DNA from: Bolinopsis microptera
Taxonomy: Eukaryota > Ctenophora > Tentaculata > Lobata > Bolinopsidae
DNA: 64,000 nucleotides
Direction of reading: 5' to 3'
NCBI RefSeq assembly: GCF_026151205.1
Contig: NC_087079.1
Coordinates: 15,485,445-15,549,444 of the forward strand
Shown here: piece after piece, positions 43,009 through 62,013 of the stretch
How positions within the stretch are numbered: position 1 is the first letter of the stretch
How the letters are laid out: every line of letters begins with the position of its first letter
Notes under the pieces: model-generated
Databases searched by the model: none
Seen by the model: only the letters and a program-made list of their open reading frames with translations
Told to the model about the DNA's origin: nothing
Translations under genes and position numbers: made by a program

Positions 43009-46000
43009 TAATGAACAGGGTAGCTTACCTAGGGACCGGGACCTCAGGCATTCACAATAGAGATTAGGCGGAATGACATTTTCGGTCCGAGTCTGGAGTC
43101 ATTCTTGATAGGTACCTCTCGTATCGAGAACTCCCGCTTCCGGGCTCGTGTTGCAAAGGAGAGACCTGCCTTCCGAGATCGCGTTACCAAGGGAAGCCTC
43201 GAGTTCAAAATTGTGGAGAAAAGTGGTTTCCAGAAAATTAATTAAAATTAAAAAAAGATTTCAGAAAACCGAAAAGCCAACCTCCGATCCCCCTTCCCCT
43301 ACCCTTTAGCAGTTGCTTTAGTATTGCTCTTTATCGTGTTTAATATTACGATCCAGTTTTGGCTCCGAGTCAAGTTTTGTGCAGACTGCAGTAGAGATTG
43401 CATTACGACCAAGGGGAAGCCTCGAGTCCTGGGTGCAGATAATTATATAGAATTGAAATAGAATTAAAATCGATGTACCAAGCGCTTAAGGACCGTTCCA
43501 ATCTATAAATCAATTTTATATTGGAGAGAAAATATTGGAGTGATATTTTTCCGTTTATTAATGCGATCTCGGAAGGCATGCCTCCCCTTTGCCTCCCCTT
43601 CAGCCGGATATCTGGTCGGTTCATAATATGGTAATTCAAATTGATAATTGCCCAGGGTATAGGTTATAAGATTATCGCGTAGTCTGAACTTTCATATCAT
43701 TTGTCATTGTGGTAATTCAATTCCTCGAAGCTGCAAGATTTCGCAGTTTTTATAAATTCCTGGGTGCAGATAATTATAATTACATAGAATTAAAATTAAA
43801 TAGAATTCAAGTCGATGTACCAAGCGCTTAAGGACCGTTCCAATCTATAAATCAATTTTATAATGGAGAGAAAATATTGGAGTGATATTTTTCCGTTTAT
43901 TAATGCGATCTCGGAAGGCAGGCCTCCTCTTTGCCTCCCTTTCAGCCGGATATCCGGTCGGTTCATAATAATAATATGGTAATTGATAATTGCCCAGGGT
44001 TTAAGTTATATTTATAAGATTTCAGCGGATATGTTCGGCTAATAATTGATAATGAACAGGGTAGCTTAGCTAGGGACCGGGACCTCAGGCATTCACAATC
44101 ACAATAGAGATCAGGCGGAATGACAGGCTGAGCGCCGCCTACTCTAGAACATTGTAAAGGGTAGCATGAAACGTGGAAAAAAGTTGTTTCCAGAAAAACT
44201 TTGAAAAATGTTGACTTAAAACATTTTCGGTCCGAGTCTGGAGTCATTCTCGATAGGTACCTCCCGTATCGAGAGCTCCCACTTCCGAGCTGCAGGTGTT
44301 GCAAAGGGGAGCCTGCCTTCCGAGATCGCATTACCAGGGGAAGCCTCGAGTCCAAAATTGTGGAGAAAAGTGGTTTCCAGAAAAATATTTAAAATAAAAA
44401 AAAGATTTCAGAAAACCGAAGAGCCAACCTCTAGTAATAGTATTGCTCTTTATCGTGTTTAATATTACGATCCAGTTTTGGCTCCGAGTCAAGTTTTGTG
44501 CAGACTGCAGAATGCAGACTGCCTTCCGAGGGTCAGGTGCAGACTTCGGAAAACTGAAAAATATTTTCGGCTAATATTGAAAAGGGTAGCATCAAGCATG
44601 AAATGTGGAGAAAAGTGGTTTCCGGAAAAACTTTGAAATATTGTTGACTCCGAGTCATTCTCAATATGCGTACCTCTGAGGGCAGAGCTCCCGCTTCCGA
44701 GCTCGTTTTGGAAGAGGCCTAGAGGGAGGCCTATAATAGCTCAAGCTGCTTTCCAGGATCGCATTGCAATAATTTATTGCATCTTTTAAATTGTATAAAA
44801 TTGTACGGACGAAATGATCCCAAGGCCAAGGGGGACTCCCAACCTACCGCTTCGGCAGGTAGTTGATACATCTTTTACAAGCAAGAGCCAACCTTAGAGA
44901 GAATATCTTCGATCAGATTTGCAAGGGTTTCGCTTGACCGTCCTTTTTCCAGTTTCCGCTCTCATTAGCGATTCATCAAGCGCTTTTTCCATGGGATTTA
45001 TTTTCGTTGACTTACATATTGCGTAGTCTGAACTCTGATATCATTGAGGTACTGGTAATTCAATTTCTCGAAGCTGCAAGATTTCGCAGTTTTTATAAAT
45101 TCCTGGGTGCAGATAATTATATTTATATAGAATTAAAATAGAATTAAAGTCGATGTACCAAGCGCTTAAGGGCTGTTCCAATCTATAAATCAATTTTATA
45201 ATGGAGAGAAAATATTGGAGTGATATTTTTCCGTTTATTAATGCGATCTCGGAAGGCAGGCCTCCTCTTTGCCTCCCTTTCAGCCGGATATCCGGTCGGT
45301 TCATAATAATAATATGGTAATTGATAATTGCCCAGGGTTTAAGTTATATTTATAAGATTTCAGCGGATATGTTCGGCTAATAATTGATAATGAACAGGGT
45401 AGCTTAGCTAGGGACCGGGACCTCAGGCATTCACAATCACAATAGAGATCAGGCGGAATGACAGGCTGAGCGCCGCCTACTCTAGAACATTGTAAAGGGT
45501 AGCATGAAACGTGGAAAAAAGTTGTTTCCAGAAAAACTTAGAAAAATGTTGACTTAAAACATTTACGGTCCGAGTCTGGAGTCATTCTCGATAGGTACCT
45601 CCCGTATCGAGAGCTCCCACTTCCGAGCTGCAGGTGTTGCAAAGGGGAGCCTGCCTTCCGAGATCGCATTACCAGGGGAAGCCTCGAGTCCAAAATTGTG
45701 GAGAAAAGTGGTTTCCAGAAAAATATTTAAAATAAAAAAAAGATTTCAGAAAACCGAAGAGCCAACCTCTAGTAATAGTATTGCTCTTTATCGTGTTTAA
45801 TATTACGATCCAGTTTTGGCTCCGAGTCAAGTTTTGTGCAGACTGCAAAATGCAGACTGCCTTCCGAGGGTCAGGTGCAGACTTCGGAAAACTGAAAAAT
45901 ATTTTCGGCTAATATTGAAAAGGGTAGCATCAAGCATGAAATGTGGAGAAAAGTGGTTTCCGGAAAAACTTTGAAATATTGTTGACTCCGAGAGAAAACC

Positions 46001-49000
46001 GAAGAGCCAACCTCTAGTAATAGTATTGCTCTTTATCGTGTTTAATATTACGATCCAGTTTTGGCTCCGAGTCAAGTTTTGTGCAGACTGCAGAATGCAG
46101 ACTGCCTTCCGAGGGTCAGGTGCAGACTTCGGAAAACTGAAAAATATTTTCGGCTAATATTGAAAAGGGTAGCATCAAGCATGAAATGTGGAGAAAAGTG
46201 GTTTCCAGAAAAACTTTGAAATATTGTTGACTCCGAGAGAAAACCGAAGAGCCAACCTCTAGTAATAGTATTGCTCTTTATCGTGTTTAATATTACGATC
46301 CAGTTTTGGCTCCGAGTCAAGTTTTGTGCAGACTGCAGAATGCAGACTGCCTTCCGAGGGTCAGGTGCAGACTTCGGAAAACTGAAAAATATTTTCGGCT
46401 AATATTGAAAAGGGTAGCATCAAGCATGAAATGTGGAGAAAAGTGGTTTCCGGAAAAACTTTGAAATATTGTTGACTCCGAGTCATTCTCAATATGCGTA
46501 CCTCTGAGGGCAGAGCTCCCGCTTCCGAGCTCGTTTTGGAAGAGGCCTAGAGGGAGGCCTACAATAGCTCAAGCTGCTTTCCAGGATCGCATTGCAATAA
46601 TTTATTGCATCTTTTAAATTGTATAAAATTGTACGGACGAAATGATCCCAAGGCCAAGGGGGACTCCCAACCTACCGCTTCGGCAGGTAGTTGATACATC
46701 TTTTACAAGCAAGAGCCAACCTTAGAGAGAATATCTTCGATCAGATTTGCAAGGGTTTCGCTTGACCGTCCTTTTTCCAGTTTCCGCTCTCATTAGCGAT
46801 TCATCATGCGCTTTTTCCATGGGATTTATTTTCGTTGACTTACATATTGCGTAGTCTGAACTCTGATATCATTGAGGTACTGGTAATTCAATTTCTCGAA
46901 GCTGCAAGATTTCGCAGTTTTTATAAATTCCTGGGTGCAGATAATTATATTTATATAGAATTAAAATAGAATTCAAGTCGATGTACCAAGCGCTTAAGGA
47001 CCGTTCCAATCTATAAATCAATTTTATAATGGAGAGAAAATATTGGAGTGATATTTTTCCGTCTATTAATGCGATCTCGGAAGGCAGGCCTCCTCTTTGC
47101 CTCCCTTTCAGCCGGATATCCGGTCGGTTCATAATAATAATATGGTAATTGATAATTGCCCAGGGTTTAAGTTATATTTATAAGATTTCAGCGGATATGT
47201 TCGGCTAATAATTGATAATGAACAGGGTAGCTTAGCTAGGGACCGGGACCTCAGGCATTCACAATCACAATAGAGATCAGGCGGAATGACAGGCTGAGCG
47301 CCGCCTACTCTAGAACATTGTAAAGGGTAGCATGAAACGTGGAAAAAAGTTGTTTCCAGAAAAACTTTGAAAAATGTTGACTTAAAACATTTTCGGTCCG
47401 AGTCTGGAGTCATTCTCGATAGGTACCTCCCGTATCGAGAGCTCCCACTTCCGAGCTGCAGGTGTTGCAAAGGGGAGCCTGCCTTCCGAGATCGCATTAC
47501 CAGGGGAAGCCTCGAGTCCAAAATTGTGGAGAAAAGTGGTTTCCAGAAAAATATTTAAAATAAAAAAAAGATTTCAGAAAACCGAAGAGCCAACCTCTAG
47601 TAATAGTATTGTTCTTTATCGTGTTTAATATTACGATCCAGTTTTGGCTCCGAGTCAAGTTTTGTGCAGACTGCAGAATGCAGACTGCCTTCCGAGGGTC
47701 AGGTGCAGACTTCGGAAAACTGAAAAATATTTTCGGCTAATATTGAAAAGGGTAGCATCAAGCATGAAATGTGGAGAAAAGTGGTTTCCGGAAAAACTTT
47801 GAAATATTGTTGACTCCGAGTCATTCTCAATATGCGTACCTCTGAGGGCAGAGCTCCCGCTTCCGAGCTCGTTTTGGAAGAGGCCTAGAGGGAGGCCTAT
47901 AATAGCTCAACCTGCTTTCCAGGATCGCATTGCAATAATTTATTGCATCTTTTAAATTGTATAAAATTGTACGGACGAAATGATCCCAAGGGGGACTCCC
48001 AACCTACCGCTTCAGCAGGTAGTTGATACATCTTTTACAAGCAAGAGCCAACCTTAGAGAGAATATCTTCGATCAGATTTGCAAGGGTTTCGCTTGACCG
48101 TCCTTTTTCCAGTTTCCGCTCTCATTAGCGATTCATCAAGCGCTTTTTCCATGGGATTTATTTTCGTTGACTTACATATTGCGTAGTCTGAACTCTGATA
48201 TCATCGAGGTACTGGTAATTCAATTTCTCGAAGCTGCAAGATTTCGCAGTTTTTATAAATTCCTGGGTGCAGATAATTATATTTATATAGAATTAAAATA
48301 GAATTAAAGTCTAGACTGTACCAAGCGCTTAAGGGCTGTTCCAATCTATAAATCAGTTTTATATTGGAGAAACTGTTTTAATTAGTCTCGCCCAGGGTAT
48401 AGGTTATATAATAAGATTTCAGTGATGTTTTTCCGTTTATTAATGCGATCTCGGAAGGCAGGCCTCCCCTTTGCCTCCCCTTCAGCCGGATATCCGGTCG
48501 GTTCATAATATGGTAATCGATAAAATACAGTTGTGGAACACAAGAAGAAAATTGAGAATAATCTTGTGCACGAGGGCAGGGACCCAGAATCCAGATGTCG
48601 TTTCTAACCCGAATAAACTTTAATATAAGGAGGCTTCTCATCAGTAGCCGCACCTAGCTCCTTACTCGGTTTCTGAACTGGAATTCATGAGCTTCCCGCT
48701 TCCAGACGGCCAGACCGAGTATTACCATCCCATCCTTCTAGTATAGAGTTCATCACAAGTAGCACTCACCTTGAAGATCTTTGACATTAGCGATTCATCA
48801 AGCGCTTTTTCCATGGGATTTATTTTCGTTGACTTACATATTGCATAGTCTGAACTCTGATATCATCGAGGTACTGGTAATTCAATTTCTCGAAGCTGCA
48901 AGATTTCGCAGTTTTTATAAATTCCTGGGTGCAGATAATTATATTTATATAGAATTAAAATAGAATTAAAGTCTAGACTGTACCAAGCGCTTAAGGGCTG

Positions 49001-49630: not shown

Positions 49631-50305
49631 TTATCGGACCTTATTTGGACGGATATTAATTGAACGCTGGGGGCCCTAACGTTCATCTTAATGTTCGTTC
49701 AAATAAAGTCCGTTCATTTAAGGTCCATCCAAGTTAAAGTTCGTTGAATTTTTTTCAAAAATGTCTCCACTTCGAACTTTTTGTCCAGAATATGACAACT
49801 ATGAGAACTTTATTGTGCCGTAAGTTAACGACGAAAAGGTTCTCTGCCGGAGGCACAGAAAACTTTACTAGTATATGATGTCTCCAAAAGTTAACGAAAT
49901 TATGGCACTCAACAATATAGTTCATGAGCTAGTCCCCGCCAACATGACAAAATTGTTCCAGCCTTACCTCTAGATATTACGGTAAATCGTGTTGCCAAGG
50001 ACATTGTCCGACGTTGTTATAGTTCATATTACTCAGGGGAGGTAATGAAACAGTGCTAGGAAAGCTCCACGTGATGTTAAGGTTAACCTTAAGTTGTCTA
50101 AGATAAAAACCACTTCACGCCGAATGGCTTGTAAAAGTTAACACTGAAATGCAGGACCGGGGTAGTTTGATAAAAAAGGTTTCCATAAAGCTAGAAATCA
50201 CTGATGCTTTAAGCATGGACTATTTCATGCACGAAAACCCATTTGATGAAGATGATATGTGATATTAGACACTGATCATGTACACATATTTTAACATTTT
50301 TACTG
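49631..50305 (+). mobile_element. pogo/Tigger-like remnant
   Basis: The left end ccttatcggacc is at 49631, then the same transposase relic (ELVPANMTKLFQ-like near 49925, the GMQDRGSLIKK-like region near 50150, NPFDEDDM near 50238). It is truncated at about 50305 by a fragment of the GATTACGTAAT-type MITE (50306-50420). Confidence 0.75.
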
Positions 50306-50420
50306 CTTCGAGGCCAGGGAGAGCCGGGGGTTTCAAAATGATTGCGCTAGTGTTATTTTGACACAATAGCTATGTAAATGTGTAAAATTGATTACGGAGG
50401 GCCGCGCGGGGCGCAATCAG

Positions 50421-52486
50421 GTAACACATATTCAAATAACTTAAAAATGTTATGTTTTACACTGCACACTGAGTTTCTTGACAACATGATTTTAAAATTA
50501 TATTAATACCCCATAGTCATAGAAGCAGGAAGCTTTTACAATTAAATTAAATGTGCCGCATGGCTGGCGCCTGGCATGGGGTTAGTTGAGCAGACGGTTC
50601 TACAACATTGGATTCCAGCATTATTGTATAACAAGTTAAACTTAAGTATAAGCTAAAATTCCTTCAAAGCAAATTATTGACACACGTTGCCACCCCTTTT
50701 TGTTTAAGTTTAACGGGTGATACTTGTAAAATATTTGTTTCAAGCCCGCGACCGTTGATTATTTGACCAGAGTACATTGCATGAACGGACATAACAAAAT
50801 GAAATGGAATATGCTTTAATTTGTGTTAACGTTTATAAACGTTATACAAGCTATAAATAGCTTGTATCACTCCTAGACCTAGTATTTATTTATTTAATAA
50901 ACCAATACGTTCAACTATTTCCAAGATCCTTAGAGGTAGGTCCTGTGTCCCGAGTCGTAATTAGAACCCTTTTATAAACACCTCCTGTAGAGTAATAGTA
51001 GCACACAAGATGTTCGAATTGCTAGCTGCTAGTGTTAAATGACGTATTTTGTGAAGCACTGGGGAGGATGTCTGATGAAAGAAGTTTATTTTTGTTGTAT
51101 GTGATGCAGGTTATTCGTAATAAAGTGTTTAATAACATTCATATTATATATTACGTTGAGGACTTGAGGTATTTCGTCTATACTTATTAAATAAACGCCG
51201 AATTAATTTTTGGTATGAATAAACCAACGAAATTATGTACCTAAAATTGTGAATATCCTGCAAGCGTTACTGTTATGTGAAGGATTTCTGATGAAAGAAG
51301 ATGAGTTGTTTGTTGTGAGTGGTGCTAGTTTTTCGTAATAAAGTGTTTTTATCAACATTTGTAGGTGCGCAATTTCTGATTTCAGTGCTTTGTTCATTAT
51401 TTTAAGCTTATTCAGTAGTTAATTCAATATAAGACGATAATAGTACGCAAGTAGATAAATGAAAGGACTGCAGAGCTGCAGCCAATAAAGGTGAATAACT
51501 ATTATCTGTCCGAATATATTCGTCCCGAAATCCAGCCAGCCGGCCAACGCCTAATGCCGTTTCGAAGGGCCGATAATATTAGTCTACATAAAAGCCATCG
51601 TCTAAAGTGAGATTCACACTTCACAGGCACCTCAGTTTTAGGGTCACCAATACTTGTATAATTCCCAGAGTCTAACGGAAACTTCGTTGAATAGTTGAGA
51701 AGTTTAATAATTTGCTTTAAGTCTACTGAGGTCGGGTCACCAAACTGACCCGGCCCCCAATTTCCCACGGTGCCTCAAGCTTGCATGTTAATTACTTGAT
51801 GACACATATTATAGTGGTCAGATCACTTGGTGACCTTAGGTCCTCCATCCATACGTCACAGTCATCCGTCAGAGCTAATGAGGTGAAAATATTATCGTAT
51901 TATCTGAAAATGCAATAATAATTCAGTTTTTTGGCTCTGGAGTGAGGTTACTAAAGCACGGTGATTTACCGTTTGAATTCCACAAATAATGAATACAGCA
52001 AGATTTGCACGTAAAAAAGGTGAATAGATTGATATAGTAATTTGTGATTATATCAATTATTGTGGTATGTGCAATCCTGTCCTGGCAAAAGTCTAGCTCA
52101 CATTGGTACGTCTGCTACGTTTCTCGATATTATCGACTTATAACTTTTCCCGGAATTATAATTATATGCACTAAACTCGTGGTCACTGAGCTCTCATGAG
52201 AGATAATTTGCAGATTTTTCCCGCAAGGAACCGAAAGTATTATTAGCACAGATTGCGAGTCACCTCAGACTGGAAGTTTCATAACAAATAACAGTGGTTT
52301 CTCGGAATCACGACCTTTTTGACCGCACCCATATCGCGACCCCCACTATAAATTATCTCAGCTTCTGATTGAGCTACAGAACTCAGCCATGAACCAAAAT
52401 GTGCCTAAGATTCATGTTTATATAAGTGCTATGAACATACTTATATAAGTCCTAAGATATGATAATTGTGATAATTTCAGTAAATT
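50421..52486. other. mostly unannotated DNA with one TTAA-element end
   Basis: At 50708 a TTAACGGGTGATACTTG end of the 12076-type element appears without a partner. A minus-strand frame at 51768-51502 has coding-like composition in its first 55 codons but no recognisable motif, and I do not call it. The rest shows nothing. Confidence 0.4.
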
Positions 52487-52722
52487 ATACTCCATTAATT
52501 TAATTATAAAAAATCTAAAGCCTAAATCAAAATTCTAAGAATGCTATAGCCTATTCCTATCCTCTTTCTACAACCCTGCTAAAAATGGCGAGGTTTCAAC
52601 TCCATTTGCGAGCTGGGTTTGATTTCACCAGAGGGTCATTTTGAGGTCGATTTTCGGTGTTTTTTCTTCTATGTCCCCGTTGCCGGGGAAATTTCGTCAA
52701 GTTTAAATTATAGTATAGATAT
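52487..52722 (+). repeat. partial copy of the 59.9-62.0 kb repeat
   Basis: Shares tctaaagcctaaatcaaaat through cggggaaatttcgtcaag with 60475-60700, 61085-61310 and, inverted, 61385-61600. Confidence 0.85.
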
Positions 52723-53057
52723 GTATATATGTAGAAGAAAACACAACGCACGAAACGTACAGAGATCAGCTATGAAGGGTGATTCAGAAAATAAAAGGGA
52801 AACAGTGGAAAATGTTTGATGGTTGAGAAAGTTGTGCAACTTGTACGAGGGTCTGTGGCTTTATACCAGGACGTGACACGTTACGTAACGCGTCACGCGT
52901 ATCGCATCCATGAGTATAATTATAAATAAGACGGGTTTGTTGTTCCTTATATTATTTTTACCCTAGCACTAAGTCTAAAGCTAAATTGAATTATCGACGC
53001 GACGATAATATGCACTCCTCGTCAATACTGAAGTATGCGTCACAACTTGATTTCAAA
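52720..53057 (+). repeat. direct repeat flanking the Penelope-like region (left copy)
   Basis: About 340 bp (from gtagaagaaaacacaacgc to gtcacaacttgattt) also present at 57713-58088 in the same orientation. The right copy has an extra ~40-bp palindromic insert (around 57901-57965). Confidence 0.9.
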
Positions 53058-53084
53058 GTCAATAATATAATAAGTGACGTTCAG

Positions 53085-53445
53085 GAAAATTTGATGGACG
53101 AAGTTGAAGTCCGGAAATGAACTGGCGGTGGGATCGAATGATAAATTAGCTTAGCCGACTGAATGATTCAATGAATCAATAAATATTTTAAGACTGAATA
53201 ATTGGTGTGGAACAGCTCTTAAACATTCTGAAATTTCTGGAAGATTTCTGAAATTTCTGGAAATGATCTTACTTTACCTCACGTTTGCACCCGACACTAA
53301 GTGGACCGACAAATGACAATGGTATGCCCGGTATGGGGGTCAAGACTTCATATACAAATCTTAATCAGGTAACCGGAAGTTAACCCAGTAGAGGAATCTG
53401 TGAATCTTTCCTAGTCGTTAAGTAAACATCTACGGTAAGGTAATA
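53085..53445 (-). repeat. inverted copy of the 31478-31870 repeat
   Basis: Reads opposite to 31478-31870 over about 360 bp. It abuts a short foldback-element fragment (53448-53477). Confidence 0.8.
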
Positions 53446-53524
53446 CTTTGAAACTTTGCATGCTTATCAAGCTATATCATAGATCATCTGGTGATTTATT
53501 GTACTTCGGACTGTTCCTGTTTTC

Positions 53525-56473
53525 ATGAAACTTCGAAGTGGAAGGGTCTTATCTTATGCTCCCACCCTTCCATCGCCTATACCTCCTACTCCTTCCGCCC
53601 CACTTCCCTCTTTACAGCTTCCTCCATGTCCAGCACCACCCACTCCCACACCCTTACCCATACCACCGACCGCTGCTCCTGGTAATTACCCCAGTACTCC
53701 CAGTACTACGCCTAGTCCTATTACAGACTGTGGAAATTGTCTTATGTGCAATAAAGGCTTCCTCAAAACTGACCCCTGCTACTCCAATCGGATAACAGGA
53801 GAGGAGTACACAATCTCTGAGCCCATGACGTGTACTACCTCCGGTATAGTATACCTAATTACTTGTGCACATCCTGACTGCCCTCTCCAGTATGTTGGCA
53901 TCTCTATCCAATCGCTTAGAACCCGCTTCACAAATCATAGATCAGGCCTCAAAAATGGCAAAGGCTCAACTCATGTCCTTCACCATTTCACTAAAGTCCA
54001 CCAGCCTTCAGACCTACGCATCACACCCCTACAAACGGTTCTTACATCAGATCCTAATCCTTACTCCAAGAAAAAGTCTCTGACTGCTGCACTTAAGTCT
54101 GTTGAAGACAGCCTTATGCTGTCCTTAAACACTCTATATCCCTATGGACTAAACGATCGCCTGGAGAAGCCTTACTACCTGGATGCAGAGAACGAATTTC
54201 TGGATGGAGCATGTATCTACAAGCTCTTCCCCGATCGCCCTTCGTCCCGAACATCTCGAGGCTCGAAAAATTCCACAACCTCACCCCCTCCCAACCCTAA
54301 CAACTCTAACCCTAACATTACACTTTCCTATATTGTGAAACTTTTTAAAGAGGGTAATCTTCGAGCATGTCGTGCTTTAATCTGTAATCTTAAAAAGCAT
54401 CAAGTTATAGGCCTTGGTAGCTTTACTTCTAATAATATTGGCAATGCTACTACTGATATTAAAGTTTGTTATTTAATTGTGATTGATTTATGTAACCATT
54501 TTAAAACTCGCTCTATCTCATTTTTAGATTTTAAGAAACATAATTTTAAAGTTAATAAGAAACCAGTTAATAAATATTCAGAATTTGTGCCTATTTACTT
54601 TGTATCTAAAGAGTTGGAATATTTTGGATTAAATTGTATATTAAATGATTCTGACGCTATGAAAGTATTTCCGTTTAAGGATCTCAGTAAGAAATTCAGT
54701 AATCCTCAGTTTAGATTCTCGACCTGTTTTAAATATGAGAAGTCAATCCGTGCTGATGTTACCAATTATAAGGAACATGTTTTAAATAATGAGCCTATCT
54801 CTAATGTTAATTGTTTTTGTAGTCATTACAGTGATTTCATCAACCCGAGTGTCGGGCATGTTATCACTGGGAACGTAGATATTGTTAAGAATAATAAACT
54901 TAGAAAATTATTTAAGAAAGGTTACACTTTTATTGAACCAGTTTACAAAAATAAGTTTGCTATTTTTAGGAGTGTTAAATCAGACTTACATAGATATATT
55001 AAAAGTCTGGCAACTAAGTACAGTGTCAGCACTAAATTATTTGATGGTTGGCGAGCCATAGTTTTAGATACTCTTAAACCCAAGATTTTTTCCTCTAAGA
55101 TATTTTGTAAGCGGAATCAGTCTGTTATTTCCTCGGAGTTTGAGGACCTTAATGTCCTAAAAGAACATTTTATTATGACTAGCGTAGACAAAGCGAGTAA
55201 TAATGTTTCTTTTGTCTGCAAGAAGTACTATTTAGATAATTTATTGCATGAACTTTCCTCCACTAGTACTTATCAAGTTTCCACAGATTCTGAAGAGGAT
55301 ATTGTAAGAAAGCATGTGCAATTTTGCCAGAAGTTTAAGATTCCGGTGAATGATCTTTCGGTACCATTTATGCACATGTTGCCGAAATTCCATAAACCGA
55401 CCTTGGATTTCAGGTACATTGCAGCTGGGGTTAAATCTTCTACTAAAGTTCTTTCTAAAATTCTGAGTGGGGTATTTAAACTGCTTGGTACTACTTTAAA
55501 ATACCTAGATAATTTTAATTTTAAGTTCTTAAACGCTTCTGGTTATTGGATTGTCGACAATAAAGACAAAGTGACATCCAACCTTAATTATCTTAATAAT
55601 GCCTGCTCAGCTAAGTCAGTGTATTCGTTTGATTTTAAGAAACTGTACACCAACCTTCCCCATGATAAACTTATTGAGAAGTTATCATCTTTAATTAAAT
55701 TATGTTTTGAGGAAAAGAAACTTGACTTTATCAATATCAACGACCAGTTTAAAGCTAGATGGTCGGGAGTTAATAAGACTAAGTGGTCTTTTACATGTAG
55801 TGACCTGATAGATATGTTTAAATTCTTAATGGATAATATTTATGTTAAGTTTCGAGGTGTGATCTACAGACAGGTAATTGGTATCCCAATGGGATGTGAT
55901 TGTGCTTCCCAGGTCGCAGACCTTTTTCTATACTGGTACGAGCATAATTACATCACATTGCAAGTTAAAAACAAGAACCCTGTGGTTCACACTTTGAAAC
56001 ACGCCAGTCGATACATTGACGATTTAACCACCCCCAATATCAACAATAAGACTGTCGATATTATTTGCAATGATATTTACCCCGCAGAGTTGAAGATTAT
56101 ACTTACAAACTCTTGCAATTTATCTACGACTTTTCTTGATTTAGACATTAATATTTTGAACAATCGTTTCTACACTAAATTATATGACAAACGACGTGAC
56201 TTTAGTTTTAAAGTCGTTACTTTTCCTAACCTTCGCTCCAACGTACCTGTTAAACCTTCGTATGGAGTATTTGTAGGTGAATTATATAGAATATGCAAAT
56301 CTTCCTCAGTAGTTACTGAATTTATTCATGATGTTAAATTATTAATTGATAAACTGATTACCCAGAATTTTGAACGGAAAATCTTACATAGATATCTTAA
56401 ATTATTTATTAATAGTCAGCCAGCGTGTATCCTCAGACACTGGCATATTTTCACAGTTAATGACTTCATGTAA
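53525..56473 (+). CDS. Penelope-like reverse transcriptase with N-terminal GIY-YIG endonuclease
   Basis: An uninterrupted 982-aa ORF. Order: a short basic start (LRSGR), a Pro-rich linker (residues 12-66), a Cys cluster CGNCLMC (69-75, with C85), and a GIY-YIG nuclease domain (about 100-215). The nuclease shows GIVYLITC, QYVG at 122-125, Arg/His near 132-138, a Glu in SVEDSL (E194) and the family's closing LYPYGLN. After a ~300-aa region without a recognised domain comes the reverse transcriptase: LPKFHKP near 619, motif A SFDFKKLYTNLP (D703), motif B GIPMGCDCAS (786-795), motif C RYIDDL (D832, D833), and FLDLDI near 870. Canonical Penelope elements carry GIY-YIG after the RT. The permuted order with a Cys cluster is the mark of the Naiad/Chlamys branch. 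RT catalytic aspartates are present and there are no stops, so it may be active. Cellular role: target-primed integration of its own RNA. Confidence 0.88.
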   Translation: MKLRSGRVLSYAPTLPSPIPPTPSAPLPSLQLPPCPAPPTPTPLPIPPTAAPGNYPSTPSTTPSPITDCGNCLMCNKGFLKTDPCYSNRITGEEYTISEPMTCTTSGIVYLITCAHPDCPLQYVGISIQSLRTRFTNHRSGLKNGKGSTHVLHHFTKVHQPSDLRITPLQTVLTSDPNPYSKKKSLTAALKSVEDSLMLSLNTLYPYGLNDRLEKPYYLDAENEFLDGACIYKLFPDRPSSRTSRGSKNSTTSPPPNPNNSNPNITLSYIVKLFKEGNLRACRALICNLKKHQVIGLGSFTSNNIGNATTDIKVCYLIVIDLCNHFKTRSISFLDFKKHNFKVNKKPVNKYSEFVPIYFVSKELEYFGLNCILNDSDAMKVFPFKDLSKKFSNPQFRFSTCFKYEKSIRADVTNYKEHVLNNEPISNVNCFCSHYSDFINPSVGHVITGNVDIVKNNKLRKLFKKGYTFIEPVYKNKFAIFRSVKSDLHRYIKSLATKYSVSTKLFDGWRAIVLDTLKPKIFSSKIFCKRNQSVISSEFEDLNVLKEHFIMTSVDKASNNVSFVCKKYYLDNLLHELSSTSTYQVSTDSEEDIVRKHVQFCQKFKIPVNDLSVPFMHMLPKFHKPTLDFRYIAAGVKSSTKVLSKILSGVFKLLGTTLKYLDNFNFKFLNASGYWIVDNKDKVTSNLNYLNNACSAKSVYSFDFKKLYTNLPHDKLIEKLSSLIKLCFEEKKLDFININDQFKARWSGVNKTKWSFTCSDLIDMFKFLMDNIYVKFRGVIYRQVIGIPMGCDCASQVADLFLYWYEHNYITLQVKNKNPVVHTLKHASRYIDDLTTPNINNKTVDIICNDIYPAELKIILTNSCNLSTTFLDLDINILNNRFYTKLYDKRRDFSFKVVTFPNLRSNVPVKPSYGVFVGELYRICKSSSVVTEFIHDVKLLIDKLITQNFERKILHRYLKLFINSQPACILRHWHIFTVNDFM

Positions 56474-56780
56474 TTATAGTGTGTGTGAAGCCCTCTTGTA
56501 ATTCCTTATGCATGTTACCTTTTGCCTTTCTCCTTTAGCCATTATTTCTTTGATCGTATCGGTACAGTTTACTTTCACAGTTTATTGTTAAACTTTCAAG
56601 CGGTAAACCAGTTTATTTTCTATATTATTTCAGACTTTTATTTAAGTCTAGTTAACAGTTATACATTATTATATCATATTTTATTGATCTAAGGTGTAGT
56701 ATTGCCAGATCCTAGTTCATTTTGTAACGGAGTTTTATACTAACAGGAAACGATGTAACAGAGTCGATATATTTTAATGT

Positions 56781-56804
56781 TGCCATGGGGTGGCAAGTCC
56801 CCAT
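56781..56804 (+). promoter_or_regulatory. candidate H-type pseudoknot in the retroelement 3' region
   Basis: TGCC (56781-56784) pairs with GGCA (56792-56795), and TGGGG (56786-56790) pairs with CCCCA (56799-56803). The interleaved order gives an H-type pseudoknot with loops of 1, 1 and 3 nt, about 35 nt before the inferred 3' border. It might be an RNA recognition element for the reverse transcriptase. Confidence 0.4.
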
Positions 56805-56837
56805 ACATCGCAGTCCGGTAGTTTCATTGCGTCATAA

Positions 56838-57706
56838 TATATAAAACAATTACATGCAAAAATTTACGGCAATTCAATATTGGATGCGCATGCAACGTCC
56901 TCTCAAAGTTTGCACGTGCGAAAGGTGAGAATTTTGCTCATTCGTGATTTCCAAGTCCAACAAATTCTGCTTTGCCACGACAGTTTAATTTCATTATATA
57001 TGAATTTAATGTCAACTTGAATGAGTATTAAGTGGTATATTCAGTCAGTGATGGACCGATATGCTTACCTAAACACAAGGAAATGTTTTTAAAGGAAAAA
57101 TTTCGAAATCGTTGAAACTTCCTCCTTATTATAATGAAGATATCAGTTTATATTTCGACTTTATAAAGTACCCTGACATTATAATCAAAAAGAGATGATA
57201 TTTTACCAAAACCCATAATCATGGGTAGAGTGGACCGCTGCCAGTGTCTCTCTTTCCCAAACAAAAGGAAATGATATTAATTTGATTGACCGTTCTCAAA
57301 TGCAAAATGATACCAAGAATGAAATCGGTCGCTCGCTTTTCCCATTCATTTACAATTGTAATAGATTAAGAAGAACTACCCAAAGGCAGCTGTACTCGGC
57401 AATAAAGATTCAATAAACTTCAGCTAATTCAATAAGTGATAACTACCACCCTTACCCCGAAATACTAGGTATCGACCTGAACGCAACCCAAAGAGATTTT
57501 TACAGCATCTGATTGACATGTAATCAATCGAAAATTATTACAATTCGTAAGCCGTGAGTGAATGGGAAAAGCGAGCGACCGATTTCATTCTCGGTATCAT
57601 TTTGCATTTGAGAACGGTCAATCAAATTAATATCATTTCCTTTTGTTTGGGAAAGAGAGACACTGGCAGCGGTCCACTCTACCTATGATTATGGGTTTTG
57701 GTAAAA
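56838..57706. mobile_element. foldback element copy 3 (right part of the interrupted copy)
   Basis: An outer-arm segment (56838-57205) like 21130-21476 is followed by a central palindrome with arms about 57207-57355 and 57555-57706 and a ~200-bp spacer. Its missing piece lies at 53448-53477, on the other side of the Penelope-like element. Confidence 0.75.
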
Positions 57707-57712
57707 TAATAT

Positions 57713-58088
57713 GTATATATGTAGGAGAAAACACAACGCACGAAACGTACAGAGATCAGCTATGAAGGGTGATTCAGAAAATAAAAGGGAAACAGTGGAA
57801 AATGTTTGATGGTTGAGAAAGTTGTGCAACTTGTACGAGGGTCTGTGGCTTTATACCAGGACGTGACACGTTACGTAACGCGTCACGCGTATCGCATCCA
57901 TGATCATGGAAACCCGTCTTAATCTTATTTATAATTATACTCGAGTATAATTATAAACAAGATTAAGACGGGTTTGTTGTTCCTTATATTATTTTTACCC
58001 TAGCACTAAGTCTAAAGCTAAATTGAATTATCGACGCGACGATAATATGCACTCCTCGTCAATACTGAAGTATGCGTCACAACTTGAT
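57713..58088 (+). repeat. direct repeat flanking the Penelope-like region (right copy)
   Basis: Same orientation as 52720-53057, with an added self-complementary piece around cttatttataattatactcg / gagtataattataaacaag. Confidence 0.9.
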
Positions 58089-59762
58089 TTTTACATTTTT
58101 AGATTAAAACTCCTAGATTAATTGAATTTGCATTTTTTTTCTTCCTATGTCAATTTTTCCCCTGCTCTTGCCGAAGGCAAAAAGATCGTAGGGAATAAGT
58201 AATCGGGTTTGGATATATAAGGTGGCCCGATGGACCTGCGATGACGACAAAAGTCTGCTCCAATTCGCAATATAGACCACTCCCCTATAACTAAGTGTAT
58301 AGGATTAGGAACAAGGAAGCGTCTGTTATGCTGCGCGCGACGCTAGCCATGTTGCATGTGTTAATTAATTACAGTGAAATTCCTCCTTCGCAAAATTATT
58401 TTCCGCAATTTTCTGGATTCATTTATTGTTGATGCGCGGCACTACATTGGTCAAATAAATCGTCAATTTTTACCATGCACGAATCCCACTCATTTATAAA
58501 AAACATAATATGTAAATATGGTGCACTTTTTTCCAGTCACACTTTTCACTTTAACGGGTGATACTCGTAAAATATTTGTTCCATATATTGGACCGTCGAC
58601 GAGTCCAACTCGGCGCGCGTCCTGGTAAGTTGTAATGTGTAAACCTACAATTTTCACTTAAAAGAATTAATGCCATAATATTAATGGTAAAAGTACATGG
58701 TAGGGAAAATTGATCGTGCGTGGTTTTAACCGCGGCGAAATTCTCATTACAGTCACGATCTTTTCTGACCATCATGAAATAATTTTCAATTCTTAAAGTC
58801 ATTAAAATACAGCGTTACAGGTTAAATTTCAAGTTACAGGTTGAATTTCGAGTGGTCCTTAGGTGCAGAAAACGATGTTGCAGGATTAGCGCAACTCAAT
58901 TGTTGCCAACAATTTCAAAATTTGTATAAGTTTTCAATTCTACCAATTAGTAATTTTTCATTTTTCTGTAAGTGTAAGTGTAATTTTTTGAGTTTGACCA
59001 ATATAAAACTAAAAAAGAAACTGAAAGGAAATGACACACATAAATTGTTCGAGTTTTTTTGTGGTGTACACTGTACCCGCGACGAAATTATTTGCCCTTG
59101 ATATAAATGAGCCATCTCGGTTCTTAGATTTTTGTATTTAAACATGTATTCTGTTTTTTGATTTATAGCGGTTCAGAGGAAACCCCGGTCATGATCATTT
59201 TTCAACGGATTCTGGGTATAGGGTTAGCATCAGGCATGAGGTTACCACTTACCAGCCTTCGAGCTATTTTTACATTACGTGTTCGCATTTCCTTTTTCCT
59301 GGTCTTTCCTAAAATGTGGAAATTTATTCTCAATTTCGATCAAAGTTGTAGATGATTCATTAGTCTACATGTTTTTTGCAGCTGTTGCAGAGTCATAATT
59401 TGATCTGGATCTGCATTGCAGATCCAAATCAAATTATGACTCTGTAAAATTCATTACATAATTAGTATACTTTTGCTGCATTAATGTTTTTTGTAGGGTA
59501 ATCTGAAAAGAAACACGATGATCTCAATTCCGAATATCGTGACCATCACTTTATAATTCAGTTTATATGTTTTCTATAATGATTACAAATTAGGTCAACA
59601 AAGATCACAATTACTGTTCATTTTCCTTCCTAACCCGGTCATGAACTAAAGTTCGACACATACAAGTCTTGTCATACGTTGTATGACCCGCCGCGCACGA
59701 AGTCACATAGTGAAACGACCGTGGGGGTCGCAACGTGATACAATACAAGTCTAAACTACTGC
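58089..59762. other. unannotated DNA with a TTAA-element end and a 57-bp palindrome
   Basis: 58553-58655 is a left end of the 12076-type TTAA element (cgggtgatactcgtaaaat, then ggcgcgcgtcctggtaagtt), with no right end found. 59388-59444 is a near-perfect palindrome with 28-bp arms (cagagtcataatttgat...). The short ORFs here have no recognisable motif. Confidence 0.5.
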
Positions 59763-59850
59763 AGGGCGGCGCTCAGCCTGTGATCATCATTCCGCTGCAT
59801 CTTTATTCGGTTTATTATGTTAATGAACATAATAGCTTGGGATCCCCAGA
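59763..59850 (-). repeat. ~80-bp dispersed short repeat (minus-strand copy)
   Basis: Runs from gggcggcgctcagcctg to ttgggatccccag; see 17337-17413. Confidence 0.75.
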
Positions 59851-59864
59851 TAAAGCTGTTGCTA

Positions 59865-62013
59865 GGCAACGACGCAGTTAACCTTTGCTAAAATAACGTC
59901 ATTATTTTAACGTTTATTTTCCTCACTTCCAACGTAATTATACAAAATCTAAAGCCTAAATTAAAATTCTAAGAATGCTGTCTCCTATTCCTTTGTCTAC
60001 AACCTTCCTAAAAATCGCGTGGTTTCAACTCCATTTGCGAGCTGAAGCTGAAAATTGAAATTTAAAATATAATATACTAGAAACCCGCTAGTCGAAAGCT
60101 TTGTTCGAGGAAATTTTAAAAATCAGTTATGTTTTAATTTCTCTTCATCATATAGCTCTGTTATACTGTAGACATAATGGAATTTATCTAACAATGGCGA
60201 CAGCGTTGTTAGTATTCGGATTCCCAAAACGATACTTTTTACCGCATCAAAAAATACCAATCACAACCAAAGTTATGAATATAAGTCCTAGCGTGAGCGT
60301 AAATGTGAGCTAGTTTTGAAATTATGACGTAGCATACAGCATAACAACGCGCGTAGTTAAGATGTTCTTGCTCGCGCACGTGCATTTTAACGTTGCTACG
60401 CAACAGCGCAGTAAACCTTTGCTAAAATAACGACATTATTCTAACGGTTATTTTACCTCACTTCCGACGCTAATTATAAAAAATCTAAAGCCTAAATCAA
60501 AATTCTAAGAATGCTATAGCCTATTCCTATCCTTTTTCTACAACCCTGCTAAAAATGGCGAGGTTTCAACTCCATTTGCGAGCTGGGTTTGATTTCACCA
60601 GAGGGTCATTTTGAGGTCGATTTTCGGTGTTTTTTCTTCTATGTCTCCGTTGCCGGGGAAATTTCGTCAAGTTTAAATTATAGTATAGACTAGAAACCTG
60701 CTAGTCGAAAGCTTTGTTCGAGGAAATTTTAAAAATCAGTTATGTTTTAATTTCTCTTCATCATACAGCTCTGTTATACAGTAGACATAATGGAATTTAT
60801 TTAACAATGGCGACAGCGTGTTAGTATTCGGATTCCCAAAACAATACTTTTTACCGCATCAAAAAATACCAATCACAACCAAAGTTATGAATATAAGTCA
60901 TAGCGTGAGCGTGAATGTGAGCTAGTTTTGAAATTATGACGTAGCATACAGCATAACAACGCGCGTTGTTAATCTGTGGTTGCTCGCGCACGTGCATTTT
61001 TATCGTTGCTACGCAACAGCGCAGTAAACCTTTGCTAAAATAACGCCATTATTCTAACGATTATTTAACCTCACTTCCGACGTTAATTATAAAAAATCTA
61101 AAGCCTAAATCAAAATTCTAAGAATGCTATAGCCTATTCCTATCCTTTTTCTACAACCCTGCTAAAAATGGCGAGGTTTCAACTCCATTTGCAAGCTGGG
61201 TTTGGCATCACCAGAGGGTCATTTTGAGGTCGATTTTCGGTGTTTTTTCTTCTATGTCCCCGTTGCCGGGGAAATTTCGTCAAGTTTAAAATATAATATA
61301 GATAGATAAAAGTATGAAATTATGTACTGCAAATATCTTACTATATATAAAGCGAGACGATATATATATATATATATAAAAAATATATATATATCTATAC
61401 TATAATTTAAACTTGACGAAATTTCCCCGGCAACGGGGACATAGAAGAAAAAACACCGAAAATCGACCTCAAAATGACCCTCTGGTGAAATCAAACCCAG
61501 CTCGCAAATGGAGTTGAAACCTCGCCATTTTTAGCAGGGTTGTAGAAAAAGGATAGGAATAGGCTATAGCATTCTTAGAATTTTGATTTAGGCTTTAGTT
61601 TTTTTATAATTAACGTCGGAAGTGAGGTAAAATAACCGTTAGAATAATGTCGTTATTTTAGCAAAGGTTTACTGCGCTGTTGCGTAGCAACGTTAAAATG
61701 CACGTGCGCGAGCAAAGACATCTTAACTACGCGCGTTGTTATGCTGTATGCTACGTCATAACTTCAAAACCAGCTCACATTTACGCTCACTGCTCACGCT
61801 ATGACTTATATTCATAACTTTGGTTCTGATTGGTATTTTTGATGCGGTAAAAAGTATCGTTTTGGGAATCCGAATACTAACACCGCTGTCGCCATTGTTA
61901 GATAAATTCCATTATGTCTACAGTATAACAGAGCTATATGATGAAGAGAAATTAAAACATAACTGATTTTTAAAATTTCCTCGAACAAAGCTTTCGACTA
62001 GCGGGTTTCTAGT
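59865..62013. repeat. tandem and palindromic cluster of a ~615-bp repeat
   Basis: One partial copy (59865-60070) and two direct copies (about 60075-60688 and 60690-61312) are followed by an inverted copy (61385-62013). The last two form a ~620-bp-arm palindrome around an AT-rich centre (61313-61384) with (TA)n. Shared words: tctaaagcctaaatc, aaatggcgaggtttcaac, cgctagtcgaaagctttg, gcgcacgtgcattttaa. No transposase is present. ORFs such as 61252-61494 (-) come from the repeat. Confidence 0.9.

Follow-up and report, generated by a model that had tools for sequence, protein, structure and literature searches.

The window, a stretch of 64,000 nucleotides of the Bolinopsis microptera genome, contains a complete retroelement of 3364 bp that interrupts an older repeat, here called repeat R. 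The element carries a single open reading frame (53525-56473), which begins with ATG and runs for 982 codons with no interruption, with a GIY-YIG nuclease at the N-terminus and a telomerase-like reverse transcriptase (RT) at the C-terminus. We assign it to a family, F1, with many copies elsewhere in the genome, and represent its parts as follows.

53478..56841, + strand: complete retroelement, family F1, 3364 bp; ends fixed to within 1-2 bases through the shared ends of copies
53478..53524, + strand: 5' UTR, 47 nt; starts CATAGATCATCTGG
53525..56473, + strand: single ORF, 982 codons; N-terminal GIY-YIG nuclease, C-terminal RT
53693..54181, + strand: GIY-YIG nuclease region, residues 57-219; BLASTP match to the C-terminal GIY-YIG of element L050 (1e-12) and invariant columns
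54308..55129, + strand: linker, residues 262-535; motifs invariant in five families
54812-54820, + strand: CxC motif C430/C432, inside the linker
54857-54871, + strand: H445-V446-x-T448-G449, inside the linker
55130..56404, + strand: telomerase-like RT, residues about 536-960; from Pfam, alignment, model and BLASTP
55631-55651, + strand: RT motif A, DFKKLYT
55880-55894, + strand: RT GIPMG
56009-56026, + strand: RT motif C, RYIDDL
56474..56841, + strand: 3' UTR; ends GCGTCATAATAT(A), the fixed insertion end
53442..53477, no strand given: older repeat R, left part; interrupted by the F1 element, with empty sites elsewhere
56842..57721, no strand given: older repeat R, right part; 56842-57196 found in at least 39 other places at 97%

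The intact frame with both domains had been claimed in an earlier, sequence-only reading, and it was found as described. That reading placed the element at 53478-56837: the 5' end stands to within one base in five copies, while the 3' end lies 3-4 nt further, at 56840/56841 in 27 insertions. All evidence considered, the element is very probably a recently mobile Penelope-like element with an N-terminal endonuclease.

Nuclease, linker and reverse transcriptase

The Pfam GIY-YIG family has no match in the window protein itself (E up to 10), and the nuclease was therefore examined through relatives. PF01541 was matched at E<=1 by four of the seven proteins of our first family alignment (A1), with a best value of 2.7e-06, and the protein of a sister family, F5, scored over the curated cut-off. 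A second alignment, used for conservation, comprised F1 and four sister families of the same genome (F2, F3, F4 and F5); four of the five families were also in the earlier one. Ten nuclease columns are invariant in all five (Y110, C114, C119, Y123, G125, R134, H138, H154, E194, N210), among them the residues of the CCHH motif (C114, C119, H138, H154), and C72/C75 also lie within the nuclease region. The AlphaFold model of residues 62-250 is of low confidence (pLDDT 46), and its likeness to the GIY-YIG domain of UvrC is too weak to count as proof: this domain accounts for five of 24 Foldseek rows, at E 5.7-10 with no row at E<=0.001, and three of the four VIA rows listed score Z 2.2-2.3.

L050 is an element of 1013 aa in the same genome whose GIY-YIG domain lies at the C-terminal end (886-932, E 4.1e-07). 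It emerged when the genome was searched with PF01541, which gave 147 matches among 150 scored (from 525 candidates); a subset of these was inspected. By BLASTP, window residues 57-219 align to 836-1007 of L050 (1e-12), and residues 487-954 align to 305-719 (3e-8). Both domains are thus homologous to those of L050 and stand in the opposite order, so that the permutation is shown without outside references. Together with the PF01541 matches of relatives and the invariant residues, the alignment to this Pfam-positive domain bears out the N-terminal GIY-YIG of the earlier reading, and the swapped blocks, with the same order in four other families, bear out its permuted arrangement. No CxC linker was noticed when the L050 sequence was read by eye.

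Could a canonical Penelope-like element, with a C-terminal endonuclease, have been misread? Elements of that kind do exist in the genome, as L050 illustrates, and only some of the 147 PF01541 matches were inspected. The single unbroken frame of the window copy nevertheless holds the nuclease (residues 57-219) ahead of the RT (487-954), which already refutes a misreading, and the nuclease-first arrangement recurs in four other families; the chance of this alternative is vanishingly small.

The linker had been described as some 300 residues with no recognised domain. The stretch is not featureless: C430, C432, H445, V446, T448 and G449 are invariant in all five families and form a CxC motif and the motif H445-V446-x-T448-G449. 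We take the CxC motif to be the linker hallmark of the Naiad and Chlamys elements discussed below.

The RT domain was matched by Pfam RVT_1 at 5.7e-05 over residues 680-835, below the curated cut-off, and its key residues are conserved across the five families (D703, G786-x-P788-x-G790, R829/D832/D833). An AlphaFold model of residues 262-982, built from five alignment rows, has a mean pLDDT of 54; 183 of its 721 residues reach 70. Searched with this model, Foldseek gave 91 matches at E<=10; the three at E<=0.001 are all telomerase, as are ranks 1-13. Among 300 chains compared by VIA, telomerase occupies ranks 1-16 (Z 8.6-11.7, rmsd 4.8-7.1), followed by a group II RT at Z 8.5, level with the weakest telomerase rows at Z 8.6. 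With the conserved residues, these rankings uphold the C-terminal RT motifs and the Penelope-type RT claimed from the sequence, and on a model of middling quality the RT appears closest by fold to telomerase RTs.

As a lead only, residues of about 415-535 may resemble the telomerase RNA-binding domain: nine of the 16 telomerase rows in VIA start at model residues 154-158. About half of this region has a pLDDT under 50, and two confident helices are modelled at about 477-523.

The fold comparison also bears on whether the element might be a LINE-type non-LTR retrotransposon that acquired an N-terminal GIY-YIG domain. Its copies do look LINE-like in being single units with 5' truncation, a fixed 3' end and no pseudo-LTR (pLTR). 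Against this, L1 ORF2p reaches only Z 7.8 in VIA, behind the 16 telomerase rows, on the same model of pLDDT 54, and homologous families that share its domain order occur with pLTRs or in tandem arrays, which makes a LINE origin highly improbable.

Copies, insertion site and age of family F1

Searching the genome with the 3' UTR of the element revealed at least 40 places (681 candidates), of which 30, the window included, were examined. All 30 match to the 3' end of the element by blastn, as the choice of loci implies, and one alone (L022) has a second matching piece, which corresponds to an internal deletion. Four loci (L026, L027, L028, L030) represent a single insertion within a larger repeat, and removal of the last three as duplicates leaves 27 insertions. 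The 3' end reads TAATAT in 26 of these and TAATATA in 19. Many F1 copies are 5'-truncated. Short 3'-tail copies were considered as a SINE or non-autonomous partner and rejected, being 5'-truncated copies with varying truncation points.

The first 423 nt of the element gave eight matches from eight candidates in the genome. In five of them the match starts at query base 1 or 2: the window, L001 and L062, whose shared sequence opens at 53478, and L063 and L064, where it opens at 53479. The other three begin at query bases 9, 45 and 104, the locus at 104 being the one of these that was inspected. No element sequence was found upstream of the five 5'-intact copies within 1.2-3.5 kb, and in two of them (L062, L064) the stretch examined contains no further part of the element. 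From these shared starts and the shared 3' ends, the element spans 53478-56841 within a base or two.

Repeat R, which the window copy interrupts, is present in at least 40 places in the genome, the window included. In five of its copies (L013-L017) the empty site reads CAAGCTATATATAAAACAATTAC. Comparison of filled and empty sites fits an insertion at TATAT^ATA in which, 1-2 ambiguous bases aside, nothing was duplicated or deleted. Across 12 copies, matched ends that could represent a target-site duplication average 1.4 nt, against 1.1 nt in permuted pairs, and 137 of 500 permutations were as high. We detected no microsatellite next to the 3' end in any of the 27 insertions, scanning 120 nt downstream for at least six dinucleotide, five trinucleotide or four tetranucleotide units. 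A pair of direct repeats flanks the window copy (52715-53053 and 57706-58090, 99% and 96% identical in two blocks) and was considered as its pLTR. The former repeat stops 424 nt short of the element and the latter begins 864 nt past it; both consist of non-element sequence and were therefore set aside.

From 3883 candidates at first look, a genome search with the window protein arrived at 47 scored matches. Among them, 16 belong to F1 (85-100% aa identity, several with open frames) and 31 to other families (30-35%). The window copy differs from L001, L002, L003, L005 and L008 by a dS of 0.004-0.014, from L010 by 0.015 (211 codons) and from L004 by 0.024. Against these seven its dN/dS is 0.17-0.79 on few changes; for L001 the value of 0.49 reflects 9 synonymous and 16 non-synonymous differences. 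Across the 28 pairs of eight copies, dN/dS is below 1 in 25 of the 27 defined pairs, again on few changes, and at least 0.88 in three, of which two are at 1.05.

The sequence-only reading had suggested a recently active copy, and the near-identical copies elsewhere in the genome, together with the empty sites in five copies of R, agree with it; recent activity of F1 is well supported by these comparisons. An intact frame and a dN/dS below 1 in most pairs would also suit a domesticated host gene that derives from such an element and is no longer mobile. That reading is extremely improbable, as near-identical copies with the same ends occupy unrelated loci and the window copy splits a repeat whose other copies have empty sites.

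Sister families in the same genome

At least five families in the B. microptera genome (F1-F5) combine an N-terminal GIY-YIG domain, the CxC motif and an RT. We examined nine F2 and F4 loci. The five with a complete 5' end (L036, L037, L040, L042, L043) all have a pLTR, in which 546-613 bp of a further, incomplete unit stand upstream and are 99-100% identical; the other four are 5'-truncated. F3 forms head-to-tail arrays with a unit of about 3.35 kb. A pLTR is thus present in five of five 5'-complete copies of F2/F4 and in none of five of F1, a division that chance would give 1 time in 252 if the groups were alike. The element ends of F2 and F4 (TAATA, TAAATA) are similar to that of F1.

In a tree of ten rows, among them the five families, L050, L057 and L058, rooted at midpoint only, F5 pairs with L057 (99/100), F3 with L058 (87/88) and F2 with F4 (94/100). 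F1 branches off by itself at an open fork, and L050 lies on a very long branch. With F5 and F3 paired with L057 and L058 and F1 alone, several old lineages of such elements probably coexist in this genome.

Two candidate RNA structures were not supported. A hairpin at the RT start, at the unit junction (CACTAA-TAT-TTAGTG in F2, TGCTT-TAT-AAGCA in F3), is not a general feature above dinucleotide shuffles: shuffles as good numbered 265 of 2000 for F2, 875 for F3 and 1823 for F4 and, for hypothetical junctions, 1044 for F5 and 1963 and 2000 for F1. An H-type pseudoknot in the 3' UTR at about 56781-56806 is unsupported, with a single-strand fold z of -1.52 and 12 of 200 shuffles as good; the 3' UTR alignment over it is 83% identical, too conserved for covariation to be judged by eye.

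Known relatives and replication style

Naiad is the name given to Penelope-like elements of invertebrates with an N-terminal endonuclease. These elements have a CCHH motif in the endonuclease, a CxC linker between endonuclease and RT and an insertion-in-fingers domain in the RT, and are not known to carry a canonical hammerhead ribozyme; a pLTR or tandem structure and an insertion bias to microsatellites are usual rather than defining. Chlamys elements, found in green algae, spike mosses and Physarum, also have an N-terminal endonuclease, which is not known to carry the CCHH motif.

The window family resembles Naiad in its N-terminal GIY-YIG with CCHH, its CxC linker, its C-terminal telomerase-like RT and the absence of a hammerhead ribozyme from the 16 Rfam matches (E<=5) to positions 50000-60000. 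It has the domain order of Chlamys and differs from it by the CCHH motif, which points to Naiad rather than Chlamys. The Naiad/Chlamys assignment of the earlier reading agrees with the N-terminal endonuclease and CxC linker found here. On domain order and these motifs, the element fits the N-terminal-endonuclease ('Naiad') branch. Unlike Naiad, whose pLTR or tandem structure is shared by F2, F3 and F4, the window family lacks a pLTR in all five 5'-complete copies; it differs further in that none of its 27 insertions has a run of simple repeats downstream and that 12 copies show no more target-site duplication than chance would give. F1 adds a new family to a known kind of element, and its insertions are built more simply than those of three sister families. 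Among the papers checked by title and abstract opening, none deals with Penelope-like elements in ctenophores.

The mobility of Penelope-like elements is little understood, and PAc of Anolis (Penelope/Poseidon) is called the first active one in vitro (PMC11167929). Like the window element, PAc has GIY-YIG and a telomerase-like RT in one ORF. Its nuclease, however, is C-terminal, and it possesses pLTRs together with a hammerhead ribozyme (PMC11167929), in contrast to the N-terminal nuclease and pLTR-free copies of the window element. PAc cuts AT-rich DNA and starts reverse transcription inside its RNA (PMC11167929). By analogy, the F1 GIY-YIG domain may cut A/T-rich target DNA and the RT may start at a fixed RNA site, TAATAT. 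The F1 protein would bind the 3' part of its own RNA, and the RT would copy from TAATAT up to the 5' end of the RNA at 53478, in many cases halting early.

Because complete F1 copies are single units, unlike their pLTR-bearing or tandem sisters, we infer that the template could be a unit-length RNA starting at the first base of the element, 53478, and such an RNA would require an internal promoter or a nearby host promoter. This template, with its putative promoter, is a tentative proposal, to which we give somewhat less than even confidence. Equally tentatively, N-terminal-nuclease Penelope-like elements of one genome may split into two replication styles, one with pLTRs or tandem arrays and one, that of F1, which would have left tandem organisation behind, with a unit-length RNA, fixed ends and clean insertions free of target-site duplication.

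F1 might instead depend on pLTRs like its sisters, its single units being dead-end products and its tandem source loci missing from the assembly or collapsed in it; this would dispute only the single-unit step, not the identity of the element. Three sisters (F2, F3, F4) do have pLTRs or arrays, only five 5'-complete F1 copies are available, and an assembly of 232 contigs may have gaps. The arrays of F3 did assemble, however, and the contrast in pLTRs, none of five complete F1 copies against five of five among the nine F2/F4 loci, argues against such dependence, which we consider rather unlikely, if by no means negligible. Should the proposed split into two styles be true, the pLTR would not be essential to Penelope-like retrotransposition, and a single host would allow a direct comparison of both styles.

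One genome thus offers N-terminal-nuclease families with a pLTR, a tandem array or a single unit, as well as a C-terminal-nuclease family, in which the roles of domain order and tandem structure can be compared. Its host is a ctenophore, and several deep lineages of such elements would lie within a group for which a position as sister to all other animals has been argued. Beyond this genome, no related elements were found in viral_contigs, searched with the family alignment and with L050. The family-alignment scan of prokaryote genome records matched five contigs, all of which resemble eukaryote DNA in bacterial or archaeal bins.

Frame and leader of family F5, and arrays of family F3

Family F5, a sister family with the same N-terminal GIY-YIG nuclease in the B. 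microptera genome, is represented here by three loci (L051, L052, L054). The whole 924-codon query was covered in 18 of 52 matches, 17 of which keep a stop-free frame, and this frame has no ATG ahead of the nuclease. A leader of variable length adjoins the element upstream in 16 of the 18 query-spanning matches; in L054 it measures about 488 nt, and its first 149 nt are matched by tandem arrays on contigs C7 and C10.

In another sister family of this genome, F3, elements with open frames are arranged head-to-tail in arrays with a period of about 3.35 kb:
C6:13646374-13659000, F3 head-to-tail array
C5:23560812-23570079, F3 head-to-tail array

Irregular F1 and F1-like copies

F1 is the family of the window element. 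At L035:2325-2359 the terminal CATTGCGTCTTAATATA appears a second time, 18 nt beyond where the element ends, which would be consistent with a restart of reverse transcription. L022:1077-1788 is an F1-like copy with an internal deletion that joins element positions ~2680 and ~3104. Elsewhere, L007 and L063, the latter retaining its 5' end, lie within C1:18227409-18233258 with about 2.9 kb of other DNA between them, and look like a single old F1 copy that has been split.

A Penelope-type reverse transcriptase fused to a ubiquitin hydrolase

Among the few papers that a literature search listed, none evidently dealt with such a fusion. In L059:1-2640 (WVYN01000087.1), a relative from the family-alignment scan of prokaryote genome records, one frame encodes a Penelope-type reverse transcriptase, 30% identical to the window protein over residues 539-974 in that scan, and ends in a ubiquitin hydrolase domain fused to its C-terminal side (PF00443 match at E 5.6e-27).

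Other repeats and palindromes in the window

52715-53053 and 57706-58090, direct repeats (two blocks, 99% and 96% identity)
43963-44388 and 47129-47554, pair of identical 141-aa frames
59386-59446 and 57910-57975, near-perfect palindromes

The direct repeats, about 5 kb apart, enclose the element and part of the older repeat R that it interrupts. The paired frames are spaced by 3166 nt and belong to a near-identical repeat, and both palindromes gave sub-threshold miRNA matches in Rfam.
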